Shown here: one piece after another, positions 30,686 to 37,824 of the stretch | Position numbering within the stretch: the first letter of the stretch is position 1 | Layout: each line of letters begins with the position of its first letter | Source of the DNA: Peptoniphilus lacrimalis DSM 7455 | GTDB taxonomy: Bacteria > Bacillota > Clostridia > Tissierellales > Peptoniphilaceae | Direction: 5' to 3' | NCBI RefSeq assembly: GCF_000378725.1 | Contig: NZ_KB900371.1 | Coordinates: 62,001-126,000, forward strand | Length of the DNA stretch: 64,000 nt | The notes under the pieces: generated by a model | What the model saw: the letters and a program-made list of their open reading frames with translations, nothing else | The model's database searches: none | What the model was told of the DNA's origin: nothing | Program-made: the position numbers and the translations under genes

Positions 30686-32947
30686 TCACCTCAAATTTAT
30701 TAAATTATAATCGACATTCATTTTATTTAACATATTAATTTCTCTCTTATTAGATGTGAAAATTATAAGCTGTTTATAATCCCTTAGATAATCAAGTGCC
30801 ATCTCTAATCTTGTATCATCATAATTGGCAAAGTGGTCATCTAAAATTATGGGGAGATTATCTGTAAATAATATTTGAATTAATGAAAGTCTAAAGGCAA
30901 AATAAAGCTGGTCTATAGTACCTCTGCTCAAATTTTCTATACTCACATACTTTTCATTTTCATCATCATATAAAGAAATATTGTAATTATCATCAATAAT
31001 TATTTTCTTGTATTTTTCTTTTGTAATCCGTCCTAAAATTTCCTCAATTTTACTCTTTAATCTCGGAAGCATTTTATTTCTATTTTCTAAGAGTAAATCT
31101 TTAAGCCTTTGGTAGGCAAGCTCAGTATAAGCCCTTTTAAATTCAACCTTTTCGAGTTCTTTTATTAAATAATCTTTCTCTTCTTCTAAATCTTTAAGTT
31201 TATTTACTGAGGTTTCCAACAAATTAATCTGTCCTTTTAGTGTAGAAATTTTTAATTTTCTGCTATCTATTATAGAATTTATTTCTTTGATAGATAGATC
31301 TGTTTGTGTTATTTCTTCAGACTTTATATTTTCGATTTTTGTTTTCTCGTAAAGATCTTTTTTTAATGCTAAAGATTTTTCCAGATCAAAAATATTGTTG
31401 TTTTCGTATTTATCCTTTAATTCCCTAAGCGAAGTGACTTCATATTTTTCAAAAATAATGTTTAACTTATTTTCTAAATCTTCTATTTCTTTATTAAGCT
31501 TATCTCTTTTTTCAATTATATCCTTAGATTTTTCTTTTCTATACTCGTTAATTGCTCTATTCTTGTCATTTTCATTGACTTTTTCTTTTAGAAAATTGTA
31601 AAGCTCATCAATATCCTTTTTATGGTATTTATCAGTCAATTGATTGAAAAGTCTATCAAAATTTTTCTTCTTAGCAGTTTTTTGAATGGATAAATTTTTA
31701 AGAGCTTCCATTCTAACCTTAAGCCTTTCTACAAGTTCCTTATTTACCCTAAATTTTACTAACCTTAAATAGGTATAGATAGAAATAAAAACTATGGAAA
31801 TAAATAAGGGGTATAGGTGAAATTTTATGGATAGATAAATTACAAGAAAGGATATTAAAATGGAAAATAAGCTCATAAATAGATAAAAGTTTCTCTTTTT
31901 TTCAGAATTTCTGATATCTACTGATAAAAATTCCATTTCTTTTGAATAATTCACGCTATTAAGCTCAGAAATTTTCTCCTTATAGGACTTTAAATCTTCA
32001 AAATCCCTTTCCATATCTTCATCTATTTGAAAAACTTCATAATTAGCATGTAAAATCTCGTCTATCTGCAAATAATCTTTTTTAATCTCTCTATTTAACC
32101 CTACAGATTGTTGAAAATCATTAATACTTACAGCCTTGGCTTTCTCGTTTATAATTTTTTCTTCTATAGATTTAATTTGTCTTTGTAAGTCCTTGTTATC
32201 TCTAATATTAGCAGCAAGTAAATTTTTTTTATCAGCTTCAAGAGCTGATTCTTCTTTTTTTAAAATCTCTAAGCCCTTAAAATATTCTATTCTTTTATCA
32301 TCTAGTTCTAATTCTTCTTTATTAATCTCTTCAAGCCTTTTACTAATTGAACCAATCTTAGTCTTTGTTCTGGTCGGCTTTCCATAAGAATCTAAATCCT
32401 CTTCAAGCTTTTCAAGAGCATAATGATAATTTATTTTCTCATCATTAGAAGTGATAAAATTTGAAATTTTTTCTTTCAATAGCTTGCTGGCTTTCTCATC
32501 TATTATGCTTTCCAACTGTCTGATATAAAAAGTTGAATGAAATAAATGCCTATTCATATTAAAAAAATAAAGCCCCGGCTCTTCTATTCTCGAATATTTT
32601 TTAAAAATTGCTAAATTAGAAATATTAGTGCCCTTAGTTAAATTTAAAACTTCAATGCTATTATTTGAAAAATCTCTACTTATTCTGTACTTATCATCTT
32701 TTATAAGTTCTATATAACCCTTATAATCACTACCTTGCCAAGGTTTATATTTTTCGTATAATTCATCAGTTCTTTTTGCCTTTAAGCTGTCTTTTGAAAA
32801 TCCATAAAAAATTCCATCAATAAAGGCATGGCTTGTGGATTTACCTCCTTCATTTTCTGCAAAAATAATATTTATTCCTTGTCTTAAATCAATTTCTTTT
32901 CCCTTGAATTTTCCAAAAGCACCTAAATAAATTTTATCTAAAAGCAT
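30686..32947 (-). CDS. yhaN: YhaN-like SMC/Rad50-type ATPase with a membrane hairpin
   Basis: 753 residues. N-terminal half-ATPase starts LDKIYLGAFGKFKGKEIDL with P-loop FAENEGGKSTSHAF near 32-40. Long coiled coils flank a central pair of hydrophobic segments (about 352-392: FYLFMSLFSILISFLVIYLS and YPLFISIVFISIYTYL), then the C-terminal ATPase half has the signature LSRGTIDQLYFAF and Walker B LPIILDDHFANYDD. This matches Bacillus YhaN, partner of the SbcD-like YhaO. The membrane pair sits where Rad50 has its zinc hook, so the complex may be tethered to the membrane. Overlaps yhaO by 14 bp. Confidence 0.9.
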   Translation of the reverse strand: MLLDKIYLGAFGKFKGKEIDLRQGINIIFAENEGGKSTSHAFIDGIFYGFSKDSLKAKRTDELYEKYKPWQGSDYKGYIELIKDDKYRISRDFSNNSIEVLNLTKGTNISNLAIFKKYSRIEEPGLYFFNMNRHLFHSTFYIRQLESIIDEKASKLLKEKISNFITSNDEKINYHYALEKLEEDLDSYGKPTRTKTKIGSISKRLEEINKEELELDDKRIEYFKGLEILKKEESALEADKKNLLAANIRDNKDLQRQIKSIEEKIINEKAKAVSINDFQQSVGLNREIKKDYLQIDEILHANYEVFQIDEDMERDFEDLKSYKEKISELNSVNYSKEMEFLSVDIRNSEKKRNFYLFMSLFSILISFLVIYLSIKFHLYPLFISIVFISIYTYLRLVKFRVNKELVERLKVRMEALKNLSIQKTAKKKNFDRLFNQLTDKYHKKDIDELYNFLKEKVNENDKNRAINEYRKEKSKDIIEKRDKLNKEIEDLENKLNIIFEKYEVTSLRELKDKYENNNIFDLEKSLALKKDLYEKTKIENIKSEEITQTDLSIKEINSIIDSRKLKISTLKGQINLLETSVNKLKDLEEEKDYLIKELEKVEFKRAYTELAYQRLKDLLLENRNKMLPRLKSKIEEILGRITKEKYKKIIIDDNYNISLYDDENEKYVSIENLSRGTIDQLYFAFRLSLIQILFTDNLPIILDDHFANYDDTRLEMALDYLRDYKQLIIFTSNKREINMLNKMNVDYNLINLR

Positions 32948-33971
32948 CTGATTCCTCCATTAAATACTTGATGCCAATTTTCATAGCCTCTTTTTCTAAG
33001 TCATTATCCAAGTCAAAGGATGAAATAAACTGTCCAAGAATATTATTCTCGTTTTCTCTTGAAATAGTTTCAATATCAATTGCTGGCTTAATGTTATTTT
33101 CTATTTCTATATAAAATCCATCAAGAGATGATTTTAAATAATCTAGTAGATAATCAATATCTCCATAATTACCGTCTAATCTTATTCTAAATAAATCCTT
33201 GTCATTAAGTTGATTTTGTATAGAAGAAAAAATATCCAAAACAGATGAATCTTCCCTAACATTAATATCTAAAGTTCTGAAAGCTTTTATCTGAGTCTTT
33301 ACAAACTTCAACTCATTTTTTAAAAAGTCAACAAAAATAAAACCATGGTCCCCATCCTCCTTAAAAGATAAAGGCTCAAGAGAACCGCTATAATAGGTAT
33401 TATCATAAACTTTACCGCCCTTATGAATATGACCCATGGCAACATAGTCAAAATTTTCGGCATAAGATTTATCAATTTTTAAAAAATTTCCCTCATCTAC
33501 TATTCCATGAATTAGAAGAATATTAGTATAATCTTTTCTGATGTCAGCTTGTGGCAAAGAAATATTAAAATATTCCTTATCATAAGAAATCCCAAAAATT
33601 CTAGTTTTTAAATCATCTAAATCAAAATAAGAAAATTTATTAGAGAAAATATGAACATTTGCAGGAATTTTTACATTGTTGTACAAGGAATTAGCATCTA
33701 AAAAATCATGATTCCCACAAACTATAAAAACAGGAATTTTTATATCCTCTAAAATAGATAAAAGTCTTTTCATAGAAGATAAGGTAAAATACTCCCTTTC
33801 AAATAAATCACCAGCTATTAAAAAAATATCTATATTTTCATTCTTGACAAAAGTACAAACTTTAGAAAAATTTTCCCATTGGTCAAAAGAAATTTTTTCA
33901 ACAATATCTATTGGTAAATCTCCCTTATATATCTTGTTAAAATGCACATCTGCTAGATGTATAATCTTCAT
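32934..33971 (-). CDS. yhaO: SbcD/Mre11-like nuclease YhaO
   Basis: 345 residues. Phosphoesterase motifs HLADVHFNK (near 6-13), IAGDLFEREYF, VCGNHDFLD, LIHGIVDEGN and MGHIHKGG, in the Mre11/SbcD order, followed by a C-terminal capping domain (about 230-345). With YhaN it forms a presumed DNA-repair exonuclease complex. Start ATG at 33971 has GGTGATT and an extended -10 promoter close upstream. First gene of a four-gene unit. Confidence 0.9.
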   Translation of the reverse strand: MKIIHLADVHFNKIYKGDLPIDIVEKISFDQWENFSKVCTFVKNENIDIFLIAGDLFEREYFTLSSMKRLLSILEDIKIPVFIVCGNHDFLDANSLYNNVKIPANVHIFSNKFSYFDLDDLKTRIFGISYDKEYFNISLPQADIRKDYTNILLIHGIVDEGNFLKIDKSYAENFDYVAMGHIHKGGKVYDNTYYSGSLEPLSFKEDGDHGFIFVDFLKNELKFVKTQIKAFRTLDINVREDSSVLDIFSSIQNQLNDKDLFRIRLDGNYGDIDYLLDYLKSSLDGFYIEIENNIKPAIDIETISRENENNILGQFISSFDLDNDLEKEAMKIGIKYLMEESDAFR

Positions 33972-34192: not shown

Positions 34193-34744
34193 TTATAAAA
34201 TTAGCTTTTGTAAAGTTTTAAATTCTTCTGTCCCTGCTATTCCTGCAAGGTCAAATAAGATTGTTTCTGTATTTGTAACTACTGCTCCCATTTGATCTAA
34301 ATTTTTTAAAGCATTTAAATGATTTTCTTCTTTTCTTGAACCAAGAGCATCCATGGGTAAAAATACTTGGTATCCTCTACCAAGTAAAGACCTCACTGTT
34401 TGATAAACACAAATATGGCTTTCTATTCCACAAACTATAATTTGCTTTTTTCCTACTGAATCTATGGCTTCTTTTATTTCTTTGTCACCGTAACAATCGA
34501 ATGATAATTTTCCATATTCTTTAGAGTCTTTTAAATGTTTTTTTAAAACTTCTTCATTAGAGCCTAGACCTTTTGGATATTGGGCTGTTAAAATTGTTGG
34601 CATATTTAAAATTTCACTAACTTTTGCTAAAATAACTGAATTTTTTAGTACATTTTCGTTGTTATGAATTGCCTTTAATATTTTTCCCTGTAAATCTACA
34701 AATAAAAATAAGCAATCATCCCTATTTAATTTAAAATTTTTCAT
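34193..34744 (-). CDS. Isochorismatase-like cysteine hydrolase
   Basis: 183 residues, cytoplasmic. The Asp-Lys-Cys triad of the superfamily is complete: Asp17 in LFVDLQGK, Lys79 in YGKLSF and Cys112 in GIESHICVYQT, with the cis-peptide neighbourhood VCGIESH. Closest to the YcaC/ISOC-type members of unknown physiological substrate rather than to nicotinamidase. AGGGGGAAAA precedes the ATG, 8 bp after the PfkB-like gene. Confidence 0.88.
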   Translation of the reverse strand: MKNFKLNRDDCLFLFVDLQGKILKAIHNNENVLKNSVILAKVSEILNMPTILTAQYPKGLGSNEEVLKKHLKDSKEYGKLSFDCYGDKEIKEAIDSVGKKQIIVCGIESHICVYQTVRSLLGRGYQVFLPMDALGSRKEENHLNALKNLDQMGAVVTNTETILFDLAGIAGTEEFKTLQKLIL

Positions 34745-34752
34745 TTTTCCCC

Positions 34753-35655
34753 CTACATTTCTTCCACTTTTACTTCATTCATTATTTTTTTAATTTCACT
34801 CATTTGAACTTGTGAAAACTTCATATAATTTTCGCAAATTGAAGATGCCATTGCAAGTTTTATTGTGGTTTCGATATTATAATCCCTATCCAAACCTACA
34901 GCAAAACCTGCTAACATTAGAGTTTTATTATAAGCTTTAAAATCAGATATTTTTTCAAGATATACTCTATAATTTTTATCTTTTGTTGAAACAACAGTTG
35001 CTCTATTTGAATTTACTACAACTATACCGACTCCCTTATCTATTAATTTTTTAGAAAAAGCTGGCACATCTCCAGTGTAGTTTACTTTTTCATCTTTAAG
35101 TGCATCCTTTTTATCTAATATTAATAGATAGGGTTTTGAATCTTTAATATCTTCTAGCTTGGAAGGATTCACAAGTACGTGCACATTTTCCTTATAACAT
35201 ATTTTTATAAGACTTTCGTATAGATCATCATTAAGAGATTCATGATCAATTAAAGAAATGGCAACGGCTTTTTTGCCTTTGATTTGCTTTGCAAATTCTT
35301 CTTGAATATCAGCCTTATCTTCCATAGTAATCCTTGGAGCTTTGCTTGTGAATATTGTCTTGTTATCATCTGCTTGGAAGATTAATTTTTCAATGTTATC
35401 ATCTTTTAATTTTATAGATTCGGTTTCAATATATAGATTTCTTAAATCTCTTTCTATGAGTTCACCAATTGCAGTACCTTTTAACATCAAAACCTTTGAA
35501 TCTTGAAACAATTTTTTTGAAAAAACTGCCATATCTATGCCATAACCTGAGGCATAAAATCTATTTGATTCTATTAAATTTTCTTCACCTTGGTTAATTT
35601 TATCAACTTTATATTTTCTAATAAGTTTAGGGTTGAAATCACAATATAATATCAT
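34753..35655 (-). CDS. Degenerate PfkB/FruK-family protein (likely pseudokinase)
   Basis: 300 residues aligning by eye with 1-phosphofructokinase-type PfkB kinases along the whole length: DFNPKLIRKYKVDKINQGE at the start, RFYASGYGIDMAVFSKKL where active kinases have GGKGIN, and KTLMLAGFAVGL near residue 253 where they have the catalytic GAGDS-MVAGF. The GAGD anion hole and catalytic Asp are replaced by YNKT, and the S-L-G-A-D-G strand by VNSNRAT. The reading frame is intact with a good AGGTG start, so this is not a decayed gene but probably a ligand-binding or regulatory relative. It lies directly behind pgm. Confidence 0.78.
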   Translation of the reverse strand: MILYCDFNPKLIRKYKVDKINQGEENLIESNRFYASGYGIDMAVFSKKLFQDSKVLMLKGTAIGELIERDLRNLYIETESIKLKDDNIEKLIFQADDNKTIFTSKAPRITMEDKADIQEEFAKQIKGKKAVAISLIDHESLNDDLYESLIKICYKENVHVLVNPSKLEDIKDSKPYLLILDKKDALKDEKVNYTGDVPAFSKKLIDKGVGIVVVNSNRATVVSTKDKNYRVYLEKISDFKAYNKTLMLAGFAVGLDRDYNIETTIKLAMASSICENYMKFSQVQMSEIKKIMNEVKVEEM

Positions 35656-35665
35656 TTAATGCACC

Positions 35666-37351
35666 TCATTTTATATTTTCTAATTTCTGCAAAATATCTG
35701 CTTTCAAATCGTTAATTTTTTTATCTCCTATGTTTTTATCCTTATCTTTTGTATAGATATATAATTTTATCTTAGGTTCGGTTCCCGATGGTCTTAGAGA
35801 AAACCATGACTTATCATTTAAAATAAATTTTAAAACATTTGAAGAACCTACATCTTTATATCCATTAATAAAATCAATTTTTTCCTTACATCTGATGCCG
35901 CCAAATTCAGAAATATTTTCATTTCTAAATTTATCCATCATCCTTTTTATTCTTTCAGCTCCCTTTTGACCTTCTAGAACAATTGAGGTTAAAAATTCAC
36001 TAACATATCCATATTCTTTAAAAATTTCTTGCAGTTTATCATATAGGCTTATACTATTTTTCTTATAAAAAGCTGCCATTTCTGCTACTAACATTGCAAT
36101 TTGAACACCATCTTTATCTCTAACAAAATCAGTTACTACATATCCTATTGATTCTTCATAGCCAAAGACAAATTTATATTCATCAGTTTTTTCCCAAATA
36201 TTAGCATAATTACATATATTTTTAAAACCTGTCAGAGATTCAAAACATTTTATATTGTAAGCTTTACCAATATCTTCAATTAAATCTGATGAAACTATGG
36301 ATCTAACCATTGCCCCATTTTGTGGAAGAATATTTTTTGATTTTAAGCCTTTTAATATATAATCAACTAATAGATATGAAAGTTCGTTACCTGAAAATCC
36401 ATAATAATCAGCTTTTTCCCTTCTGCCCAAAACTCTTAGCCTGTCGCTATCAGGATCTGTTGCAATAATAATATCTGCATCAACTTTATTTGCATATTTT
36501 TTCCCTATATCAAAAACTTCAATAAATTCCGGATTTGGAAAAGAAACAGTTTTAAAATCTGGGTCTGGATTTTCTTGCTCCTTGACCACAGTAACATTTT
36601 TAAATCCTCTCTCTTTTAAAATATGCCTTACAGGTATATTCCCACAACCATTTAATGGTGTATAAATGATTTTTATATCTTTATCAATATCTTCTCCCTC
36701 ATAAATTTTTAGATCAAGGACTTTTTTGTAATAGCTCTCATCAAATTCTTTATCAACTTGACAGATAAGACCTTTTTTTAAAGCTTCATTATAGTCAAGC
36801 CTTTCGATATCAGTGTAATCAATTTTTTCTATTTCTTGTAAAATTTCATCTGCCTCATCTGTTAAGATTTGAGAACCCTTTGGCCCATAAACTTTGTATC
36901 CATTATAAACTTTTGGATTATGAGAAGCAGTTACCATAACTCCTGCAGCAGTTTTTAAGTATCTTACTGCATAGGCAAGCATAGGTGTTGGTCTTATACT
37001 ATCAAATACATATGTCTTAATACCAAGATTTGCAAAAATTTCAGCAGAGATTCTTTCAAATTCTTCAGATTTGTGACGCACATCTCTTGCTATTACAATC
37101 CCTTTTTCCTTTAAATTTTTCTTAAGTATAACTTGACCTATTGCAAAAGCTGTTTTTGAAACAGTATAAATATTCATTCTGTTGGTTCCTGCACCAATAA
37201 TTCCTCTCAAACCAGCCGTTCCAAATTCAAGACTTTTATAAAATCTATCTTTGATTTCTTCTTCATCTTTTATAGCTCTTAGTTCTTCTTTAGTTTTATC
37301 ATCAGTAAAAGAAGAGTTTAGCCATCTATTATACTCATCTAAATAATTCAT
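35666..37351 (-). CDS. pgcA: Phosphoglucomutase/phosphomannomutase (alpha-D-phosphohexomutase)
   Basis: 561 residues, four-domain phosphohexomutase. Active-site serine in VTASHNPKVYNGYK near 140, metal-binding DPDSDRLRVLG near 295, sugar-binding GYEESIGY near 390 and the phosphate-binding RPSGTEPKIKLY near the C-terminus. Length and motif order fit PgcA/YhxB. Start ATG at 37351 is chosen for its AAGGAGGACTT; the earlier in-frame start has none. It overlaps the ybaK stop as ATGA. Confidence 0.94.
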   Translation of the reverse strand: MNYLDEYNRWLNSSFTDDKTKEELRAIKDEEEIKDRFYKSLEFGTAGLRGIIGAGTNRMNIYTVSKTAFAIGQVILKKNLKEKGIVIARDVRHKSEEFERISAEIFANLGIKTYVFDSIRPTPMLAYAVRYLKTAAGVMVTASHNPKVYNGYKVYGPKGSQILTDEADEILQEIEKIDYTDIERLDYNEALKKGLICQVDKEFDESYYKKVLDLKIYEGEDIDKDIKIIYTPLNGCGNIPVRHILKERGFKNVTVVKEQENPDPDFKTVSFPNPEFIEVFDIGKKYANKVDADIIIATDPDSDRLRVLGRREKADYYGFSGNELSYLLVDYILKGLKSKNILPQNGAMVRSIVSSDLIEDIGKAYNIKCFESLTGFKNICNYANIWEKTDEYKFVFGYEESIGYVVTDFVRDKDGVQIAMLVAEMAAFYKKNSISLYDKLQEIFKEYGYVSEFLTSIVLEGQKGAERIKRMMDKFRNENISEFGGIRCKEKIDFINGYKDVGSSNVLKFILNDKSWFSLRPSGTEPKIKLYIYTKDKDKNIGDKKINDLKADILQKLENIK

Positions 37352-37824
37352 AAGTCCTCCTTGCAAATATCAAAAAATTTAGCTCCTATTAAATTTGCAA
37401 CATCTTTTGGATTAATCTTAACTTGCAATCCAACTTTTCCACCGCTCACAAAAAAGTAATCCAAATCTTTTGCTGATGAATCTATAAATGTTGGAAATTC
37501 TTTTTTCATTCCTATGGGTGAACAGCCCCCATGAATATATCCTGTAAGAGGTAAAAGCTCTTTTTGATGAATCATTTCAATCTTTTTTTCTCCACTTGCC
37601 TTAGCTGCTTTTTTTAAATCTAATTCGCTTATAGAAGGAACAACAAAAACATAATAATTTTTATCTTTAGACACAGTAACTAAGGTTTTAAAGACACATC
37701 TGGCATCTTCCCCCGTTTTTTTAGCAACATCAAGCCCACTAATGCCACCATCAGTATTATATTCAATTAAATCATAAGTTAATTTATTAGAATCTAATAT
37801 TCTAGCTACATTTGTTTTTTTCAT
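37348..37824 (-). CDS. ybaK: Cys-tRNA(Pro)/Cys-tRNA(Cys) deacylase YbaK
   Basis: 158-residue trans-editing factor that hydrolyses mis-charged Cys-tRNA(Pro). Motifs seen: VFKTLVTVSKDKNYYVFVVPS with the catalytic-pocket Lys, KAAKASGEKKIEMI, and GYIHGGCSPIGMKKEFPTFID near residue 95-115, all diagnostic of the YbaK/ProX family. First gene of a four-gene unit with pgm, the PfkB-like gene and the hydrolase; the association looks incidental. Confidence 0.93.
   Translation of the reverse strand: MKKTNVARILDSNKLTYDLIEYNTDGGISGLDVAKKTGEDARCVFKTLVTVSKDKNYYVFVVPSISELDLKKAAKASGEKKIEMIHQKELLPLTGYIHGGCSPIGMKKEFPTFIDSSAKDLDYFFVSGGKVGLQVKINPKDVANLIGAKFFDICKEDL

Follow-up and report, generated by a model that had tools for sequence, protein, structure and literature searches.

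The gene examined here, which we call pfkBx, lies in the genome of Peptoniphilus lacrimalis DSM 7455 and encodes a protein that resembles FruK-type sugar kinases throughout its length, yet lacks their catalytic motif. This raises the question of whether the gene is a kinase heading for loss, or a protein retained for a purpose other than sugar phosphorylation. The stretch of DNA analysed, hereafter the window, comprises 64,000 nucleotides of contig NZ_KB900371.1. Comparison of sequences from relatives points to the second answer, with pfkBx probably being an old non-catalytic paralogue of the FruK/LacC branch that has been kept for binding a partner or a ligand.

Reading of the open frames in the window places the ATG of pfkBx at 35655, followed by 300 codons with no internal stops. 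The Pfam PfkB model (PF00294) matches residues 16–272 with 37 bits against a cut-off of 25.8, and the NCBIfam "hexose kinase" model TIGR03168 extends over residues 3–298 (E = 2.6e-22), with a score of 79 bits that lies under its cut-off of 216. Scores also fall below the cut-offs of the 1-phosphofructokinase model TIGR03828 (69 bits, cut-off 292) and the LacC models TIGR01231 (40 bits, cut-off 410) and NF010033 (42 bits, cut-off 469). An AlphaFold2 model, for which 19 orthologues from titled records served as input, has a pLDDT of 90.6, and its best matches among solved structures are the LacC and FruK folds of the PfkB superfamily, with a Z-score of 34.8 and an RMSD of 2.5 Å over 297 residues against LacC (2awd, 21% identity), and identities of 17–21% to the seven best-ranked PDB entries. 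By this prediction pfkBx still folds like FruK and LacC, and the family matches together with the predicted fold rule out a likeness to kinases that arose by chance.

Table 1. Coordinates in the window of pfkBx, its altered kinase motifs, and the neighbouring genes.
Feature	Coordinates	Strand	Basis
pfkBx, FruK/LacC-fold protein without catalytic motif, 300 aa	34753..35655	minus	ORF, profile matches, predicted fold
N8-P9-K-L-I12-R13, NPxxDR remnant; Asp of NPxxD is I12	35617..35634	minus	alignment
SGYGID (36–41) where kinases have GGKGIN	35533..35550	minus	alignment
VNSNRAT (214–220) where kinases have the SLGxxG strand	34996..35016	minus	alignment
Y242-N243-K244-T245-L246 where kinases have G-[AS]-G-D-S, with the anion hole and the catalytic Asp	34918..34932	minus	alignment
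ybaK, Cys-tRNA(Pro) deacylase, upstream in same-strand run	37348..37824	minus	NCBIfam match
pgm, phosphoglucomutase/phosphomannomutase family, direct upstream neighbour	35666..37366	minus	Pfam/NCBIfam matches
Isochorismatase-family hydrolase, direct downstream neighbour	34193..34744	minus	Pfam/NCBIfam matches
yhaO-like (SbcD/Mre11-type) metallophosphoesterase	32934..33971	minus	profile matches, alignment
yhaN-like (Rad50-type, Pfam AAA_27) ATPase	30686..32947	minus	profile match

In PfkB kinases the Asp of NPxxD, the Asn of GGKGIN, and the Arg of the TR motif usually contact the sugar, and GxGD supplies the anion hole and the catalytic Asp; the roles ascribed here to all of these motifs are general knowledge. 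In pfkBx the GxGD position reads YNKT, so that the catalytic Asp and anion hole expected of the PfkB superfamily are absent. The TR Arg is replaced by I88 and KPN by I-L-D (179–181), with the NP turn, GxG, PxxxxE, and RxYD persisting as remnants of the kinase. These losses are shared by the genus of the window, with D12, N41, K179, and N181 of NPxxD, GGKGIN, and KPN each present in 0 of 14 genomes, as is the TR Arg. The original prediction, made from the letters of this DNA, stands up well on these points: the FruK-type likeness does run throughout, the intact frame occupies exactly 34753–35655, its place is between pgm and the hydrolase (gaps of 10 nt to the end of pgm upstream and 8 nt to the start of the hydrolase gene downstream), and SGYGID and VNSNRAT do replace GGKGIN and the SLG strand. 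The loss of GAGDS was also correctly recognised, however the residues named as its replacement, NKTLM, are one residue off from the aligned YNKTL. The losses at NPxxD, TR, and KPN go beyond those it named. The alignment of homologues that it proposed, asking whether the same residues are lost in all, returns the absence across the genus described above.

A protein search of 61 genomes found one orthologue per genome in 13 others of the genus, at 45–72% identity. All 14 genus genomes keep pfkBx and none has GxGD, which rules out a recent loss of the motif in the strain of the window alone. Beyond the genus, identity to the window protein falls to 21–42% among the rows compared. The titled records gave 19 loci, of which 15 belong to named Peptoniphilus species (among them P. 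raoultii, P. vaginalis, P. harei, P. lacydonensis, P. timonensis, P. senegalensis, P. grossensis, P. gorbachii, P. ovalis, P. obesi, P. mikwangii, and P. stercorisuis), two to Anaerosphaera, one to a Peptoniphilus MAG, and one to an uncultured Peptoniphilaceae MAG.

A tree of 109 rows, sampled from the larger number of homologues among the matches listed in searches of 130 family and 249 order genomes, contains one branch (SH-aLRT 100) that parts 68 rows from 41 that include canonical kinases. It is a quick, unrooted tree with SH-aLRT support only, in which the long branches L081, L075, L139, and L093/L094 are placed unsurely. The 68-row clade spans two families of one order, with 49 rows from the family of the window (f1) and 19 from a second family (f4); duplicate loci of one gene (including L033–L051 where an unnamed copy was the one used), the other PfkB gene of the window's genome (L001), and the second PfkB ORF of L121 were left out of the counts. 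The tree being unrooted, we infer that kinases represent the ancestral state relative to the pfkBx clade. Two genomes, G239 (L112, L129) and G246 (L115, L134), hold both a clade member and the canonical form, so that in them the kinase persists and the clade member stands beside it as a paralogue. In a class-wide draw of 391 genomes, eight genomes match at E ≤ 1e-58, all in f1 and f4, at a threshold strict enough that the clade-bearing genomes G153, G028, and G039 fail it, and the clade may be more widely present.

Counted as the full motif, GxGD occurs in 0/68 clade members, compared with 33/41 of the sister set, a proportion that reflects chosen matches rather than a natural frequency. An intact GAGD at this locus in a close relative, by which the original prediction would have fallen, was thus sought among the 68 and not found. 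The eight sister rows without it carry GAGS (three), GVRD (two), THTD (two), and GARD (one). The contrast extends to the Asp of NPxxD (2/68 in the clade and 39/41 in the sister set), the Asn of GGKGIN (1/68 and 30/41), and the Lys of KPN (1/68 and 36/41). An Asp without the glycines stands at the catalytic column in 6/68 clade members (L014, L022, L056, L061, L062, and L075, one of them within the genus), and position 245 has no consensus in the clade (N 17, G 15, S 14, H 8, D 6). The Lys of GGKG survives in 12/68 (four in the genus of the window), the TR Arg in 13/68, and the Asn of KPN in 8/68, and with these remnants of the former sites some clade members may still bind ligands.

Altered FruK genes also occur elsewhere in the order. 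A near-canonical FruK lineage in a further family, f6, has GAGS in place of GAGD (L122 4204–5184, L123 1548–2495, and L125 4343–5350), so that the catalytic Asp has gone in a lineage separate from the 68-row clade too, and further FruK paralogues with THTD, GARD, or GVRD are found at L102, L105 (genus code g7), L099, L106, and L145. These last paralogues suggest that FruK has degenerated repeatedly in the order. The one other PfkB gene in the window's genome (L001 1447–2514, G000:C5, outside the window) lies on the contig of pfkBx at a distance of 69 kb, its GAGDA intact, and has an extra N-terminal stretch ahead of the intact kinase, which we take to be helix-turn-helix-like; the gene order that it follows includes an ORF that is presumably pseudouridine-5'-phosphate-glycosidase-like.

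Selection on pfkBx was gauged by dN/dS, calculated by the Nei-Gojobori method with our own script over eight congeneric pairs, which share species and are not independent of one another. The values for pfkBx are 0.046–0.133, and the same pairs give 0.074–0.217 for pgm, 0.013–0.275 for the hydrolase, 0.097–0.190 for yhaO, and 0.134–0.324 for yhaN. Values for pfkBx are thus near those of pgm and below those of yhaN in 8/8 pairs, one by a narrow margin. Between the window and P. raoultii, a pair excluded from the pgm values, pfkBx has a dN/dS of 0.16 at a dS of 1.35, near saturation, and the pair of P. timonensis with P. phoceensis is weak because the pgm, ybaK, and yhaN frames of P. timonensis are cut short. 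The ybaK and pgm of P. timonensis (L036 3862–6000) and the yhaO of P. senegalensis (L040 7540–8550) are broken in their records, possibly through sequencing errors.

Judged by these ratios, pfkBx is under purifying selection in the genus, and the intact frames and dN/dS rule out a pseudogene or frameshift artefact there. Retention in 14/14 genus genomes, the low dN/dS, and the recurrence of the gene order in relatives all indicate that the gene is not decaying. The original prediction had read the locus as conserved degeneration and proposed the dN/dS calculation, and both the ratios and the shared absence of GxGD in the genus agree with that reading; on the evidence of the homologues, "conserved, not decaying" holds beyond the genus also. 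With shared fold and descent, catalytic residues gone, and purifying selection, pfkBx has the sequence-level attributes of a pseudoenzyme. The contrary view, that of a relic kinase undergoing slow loss as a pseudogene, could draw on the strong divergence beyond the genus, however we regard it as highly improbable: the dN/dS values refute it for the genus unless the close pairs are unrepresentative, the matches listed contain no internal stops, and members from two families lie on one side of a single branch.

In the clade the old active site varies more than average. Over 15 old active-site positions the mean column entropy is 2.81 bits in the clade (against its own average of 2.45) and 0.53 bits in the sister set (own average 1.87). 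Other positions are held in the clade, among them the acidic E89 (57/68, compared with 0/41 in the sister set), D6 (55/68 and 2/41), and D85 (60/68 and 12/41), together with R108 (59/68 and 1/41), T110 (61/68 and 9/41), K289 (67/68 and 18/41), and M292 (64/68 and 19/41). R257 and Y259 are also common in the clade (60/68 and 65/68), and are partly ancestral, since a majority of the sister rows carry them (25/41 and 22/41). The second GxGD position, 243, is Asp or Asn in 57/68 clade members (Asn in 21) and in 0/41 of the sister set. The pfkBx model has a helix at 244–256 with residue 243 just before it, and D/N243, one turn before the start of the kinase GxGD helix, may act as an N-cap that closes off the former anion hole. 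A catalytic Asp that had moved to D/N243 is the less likely alternative, the N-cap being simpler given the Asn in 21 members and the position just before the helix.

The conserved polar positions can also be read as an enzyme with changed chemistry, in which D6, E89, R108, T110, and D/N243 build another active site. That the clade conserves several polar positions which the sister set does not speaks for this reading, which we nonetheless consider improbable, with the residues located by alignment, D/N243 explicable as an ordinary N-cap where a helix begins, position 245 lacking a consensus, and no substrate being pointed to.

Around pfkBx in the window, one strand carries ybaK, pgm, pfkBx, the isochorismatase-like hydrolase gene, and the yhaO-like and yhaN-like genes in that order, the last two names being our presumptive assignments by domain and gene order after Bacillus. 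The yhaO-like protein matches SbcD/Mre11 models with scores under their cut-offs, and its residues D8, H10, D55, N87, H88, H155, H181, and H183 are invariant in 8/8 aligned sequences. On the same strand and within 6 kb, the 68 clade loci have yhaO in 61, yhaN in 50, the hydrolase in 49, and pgm in 49, compared with 1, 2, 0, and 0 of the 41 sister loci, although 20 of the latter are shorter than 5.5 kb, so that absent linkage there is weaker evidence. The sister rows near yhaO or yhaN are L145 and L032, and in L145 two genes lie between, one of them on the opposite strand. As far as gene order tells, the neighbourhood is an old, recurring cluster. Beside it in relatives stand further genes (L085 8417–9004, L082 4294–5844, and L111 5376–6918), and at L107 3591–5160, a locus without pfkBx, such a gene adjoins pgm; we take all four to be L-serine dehydratase subunit-like.

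In the window's family no neighbour stands out, with pgm near 45 of the 49 loci and yhaO and the hydrolase near 44 each, and yhaO is the most constant only across both families. Searches of the 130 family genomes found pgm in 126 (E ≤ 1e-60), YhaO/SbcD-like proteins in 119 (E ≤ 1e-12, at which SbcD proper may also be counted), the hydrolase in 99 (E ≤ 1e-20), and pfkBx in at least 49, fewer than any of these, so that co-occurrence does not support a single obligatory partner. With no neighbour universal, the gene cluster does not name the partner.

Two more specific readings of the cluster nevertheless deserve weighing. The role put forward by the original prediction, that of a non-catalytic sensor or regulator of phosphohexose metabolism, would have pfkBx still bind a hexose mono- or bisphosphate and govern pgm or the flux through glycolysis. 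This seems unlikely, though it is kept alive by the close linkage of pgm in the window's family, where pgm is directly upstream in 14/14 genus genomes. The genome also retains a PfkA-type Pfk, and E. coli FruK directly binds the regulator Cra (PMC11157272). Most sugar- and ATP-contact residues are gone, which weakens the sensor reading, with the Asp of NPxxD, the Asn of GGKGIN, the TR Arg, and the Lys of KPN missing from 14/14 genus genomes. In f4, where some loci lie at contig ends, pgm is near in 4/19 loci (each 1.6–1.9 kb off) compared with 17/19 for yhaO and 5/19 for the hydrolase. No PTS EIIC (PF02378) was matched in the window's genome, and the fructose PTS, the usual source of fructose-1-phosphate, thus seems absent. 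Among related species, P. raoultii, P. vaginalis, and P. pacaensis ferment ribose and tagatose, and not fructose or glucose, in the API strips reported in PMC6436483.

A still less likely reading makes pfkBx a non-catalytic partner of YhaO-YhaN (Mre11/Rad50-like) that binds YhaO or regulates its nuclease. Consistent with this are the frequency of yhaO beside clade members over both families, the metal-site residues kept in YhaO, and the 18 clade loci that have yhaO and lack the hydrolase, in 11 of which the pfkBx and yhaO frames overlap or lie ≤13 nt apart, as measured between stop-to-stop open frames rather than confirmed starts. In the other seven, however, the gap is 74–1285 nt; four genomes (G098, G032, G147, and G148) keep the pgm-pfkBx-hydrolase trio with yhaO elsewhere; YhaO/SbcD-like proteins are more widespread in the family than pfkBx; yhaO is no more constant than pgm in the window's family; and co-location does not equate to interaction. 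The bolder combination, in which a dead FruK-fold pfkBx is a dedicated YhaO-YhaN partner or regulator that links the nuclease with the status of central carbon metabolism, pgm being in the same cluster, we likewise consider improbable.

The broader reading that we prefer, a non-catalytic paralogue kept for binding, would leave pfkBx incapable of phosphorylating sugars after the loss of the motif. It would instead regulate or scaffold one of the products encoded by its cluster, or serve as a small-ligand receptor, with binding perhaps running through the clade-constrained residues D6, D85, E89, R108, T110, K289, and M292. The open-licence literature searched, on PfkB, ribokinase-family, and 1-phosphofructokinase pseudoenzymes, Peptoniphilus phosphofructokinase, and YhaO-YhaN, yielded no paper describing pfkBx, as judged by titles, abstract openings, or result lists.

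As pfkBx passes the Pfam sugar kinase model, metabolic reconstructions may credit these cocci with a hexose-phosphate kinase that is absent. A non-catalytic FruK clade with canonical sisters in one order offers a clean system for the evolution of a kinase into a non-enzyme and its later role, with the recurring cluster giving a short list of candidate partners. If the YhaO-YhaN reading were true, a sugar kinase pseudoenzyme would be tied to bacterial DNA processing.

Compared with the solved FruK/LacC enzymes (2awd, 2jg5, and 2jg1), pfkBx shares the full-length fold and the remnants of the NP turn, GxG, PxxxxE, and RxYD, however at 17–21% identity it lacks the catalytic Asp, the anion hole, and the KPN, NPxxD, and GGKGIN residues. 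A parallel is offered by plant FLN1 and FLN2, PfkB-type proteins that are parts of a macromolecular complex; PMC3409070, which calls their role unknown, discusses it as regulatory rather than catalytic. These are plant proteins, their partner is the plastid-encoded RNA polymerase, and the likeness to pfkBx is one of description. E. coli FruK, bound to Cra as described in PMC11157272, provides a precedent for a FruK dimer working through protein-protein contact, but is itself an active kinase. Yeast Gal3p, by the account in PMC3409070, is galactokinase-like, non-catalytic, and regulates by binding, although it belongs to another kinase family and binds ATP and galactose, in contrast to pfkBx, in which the ligand-contact residues of PfkB kinases are mostly lost.
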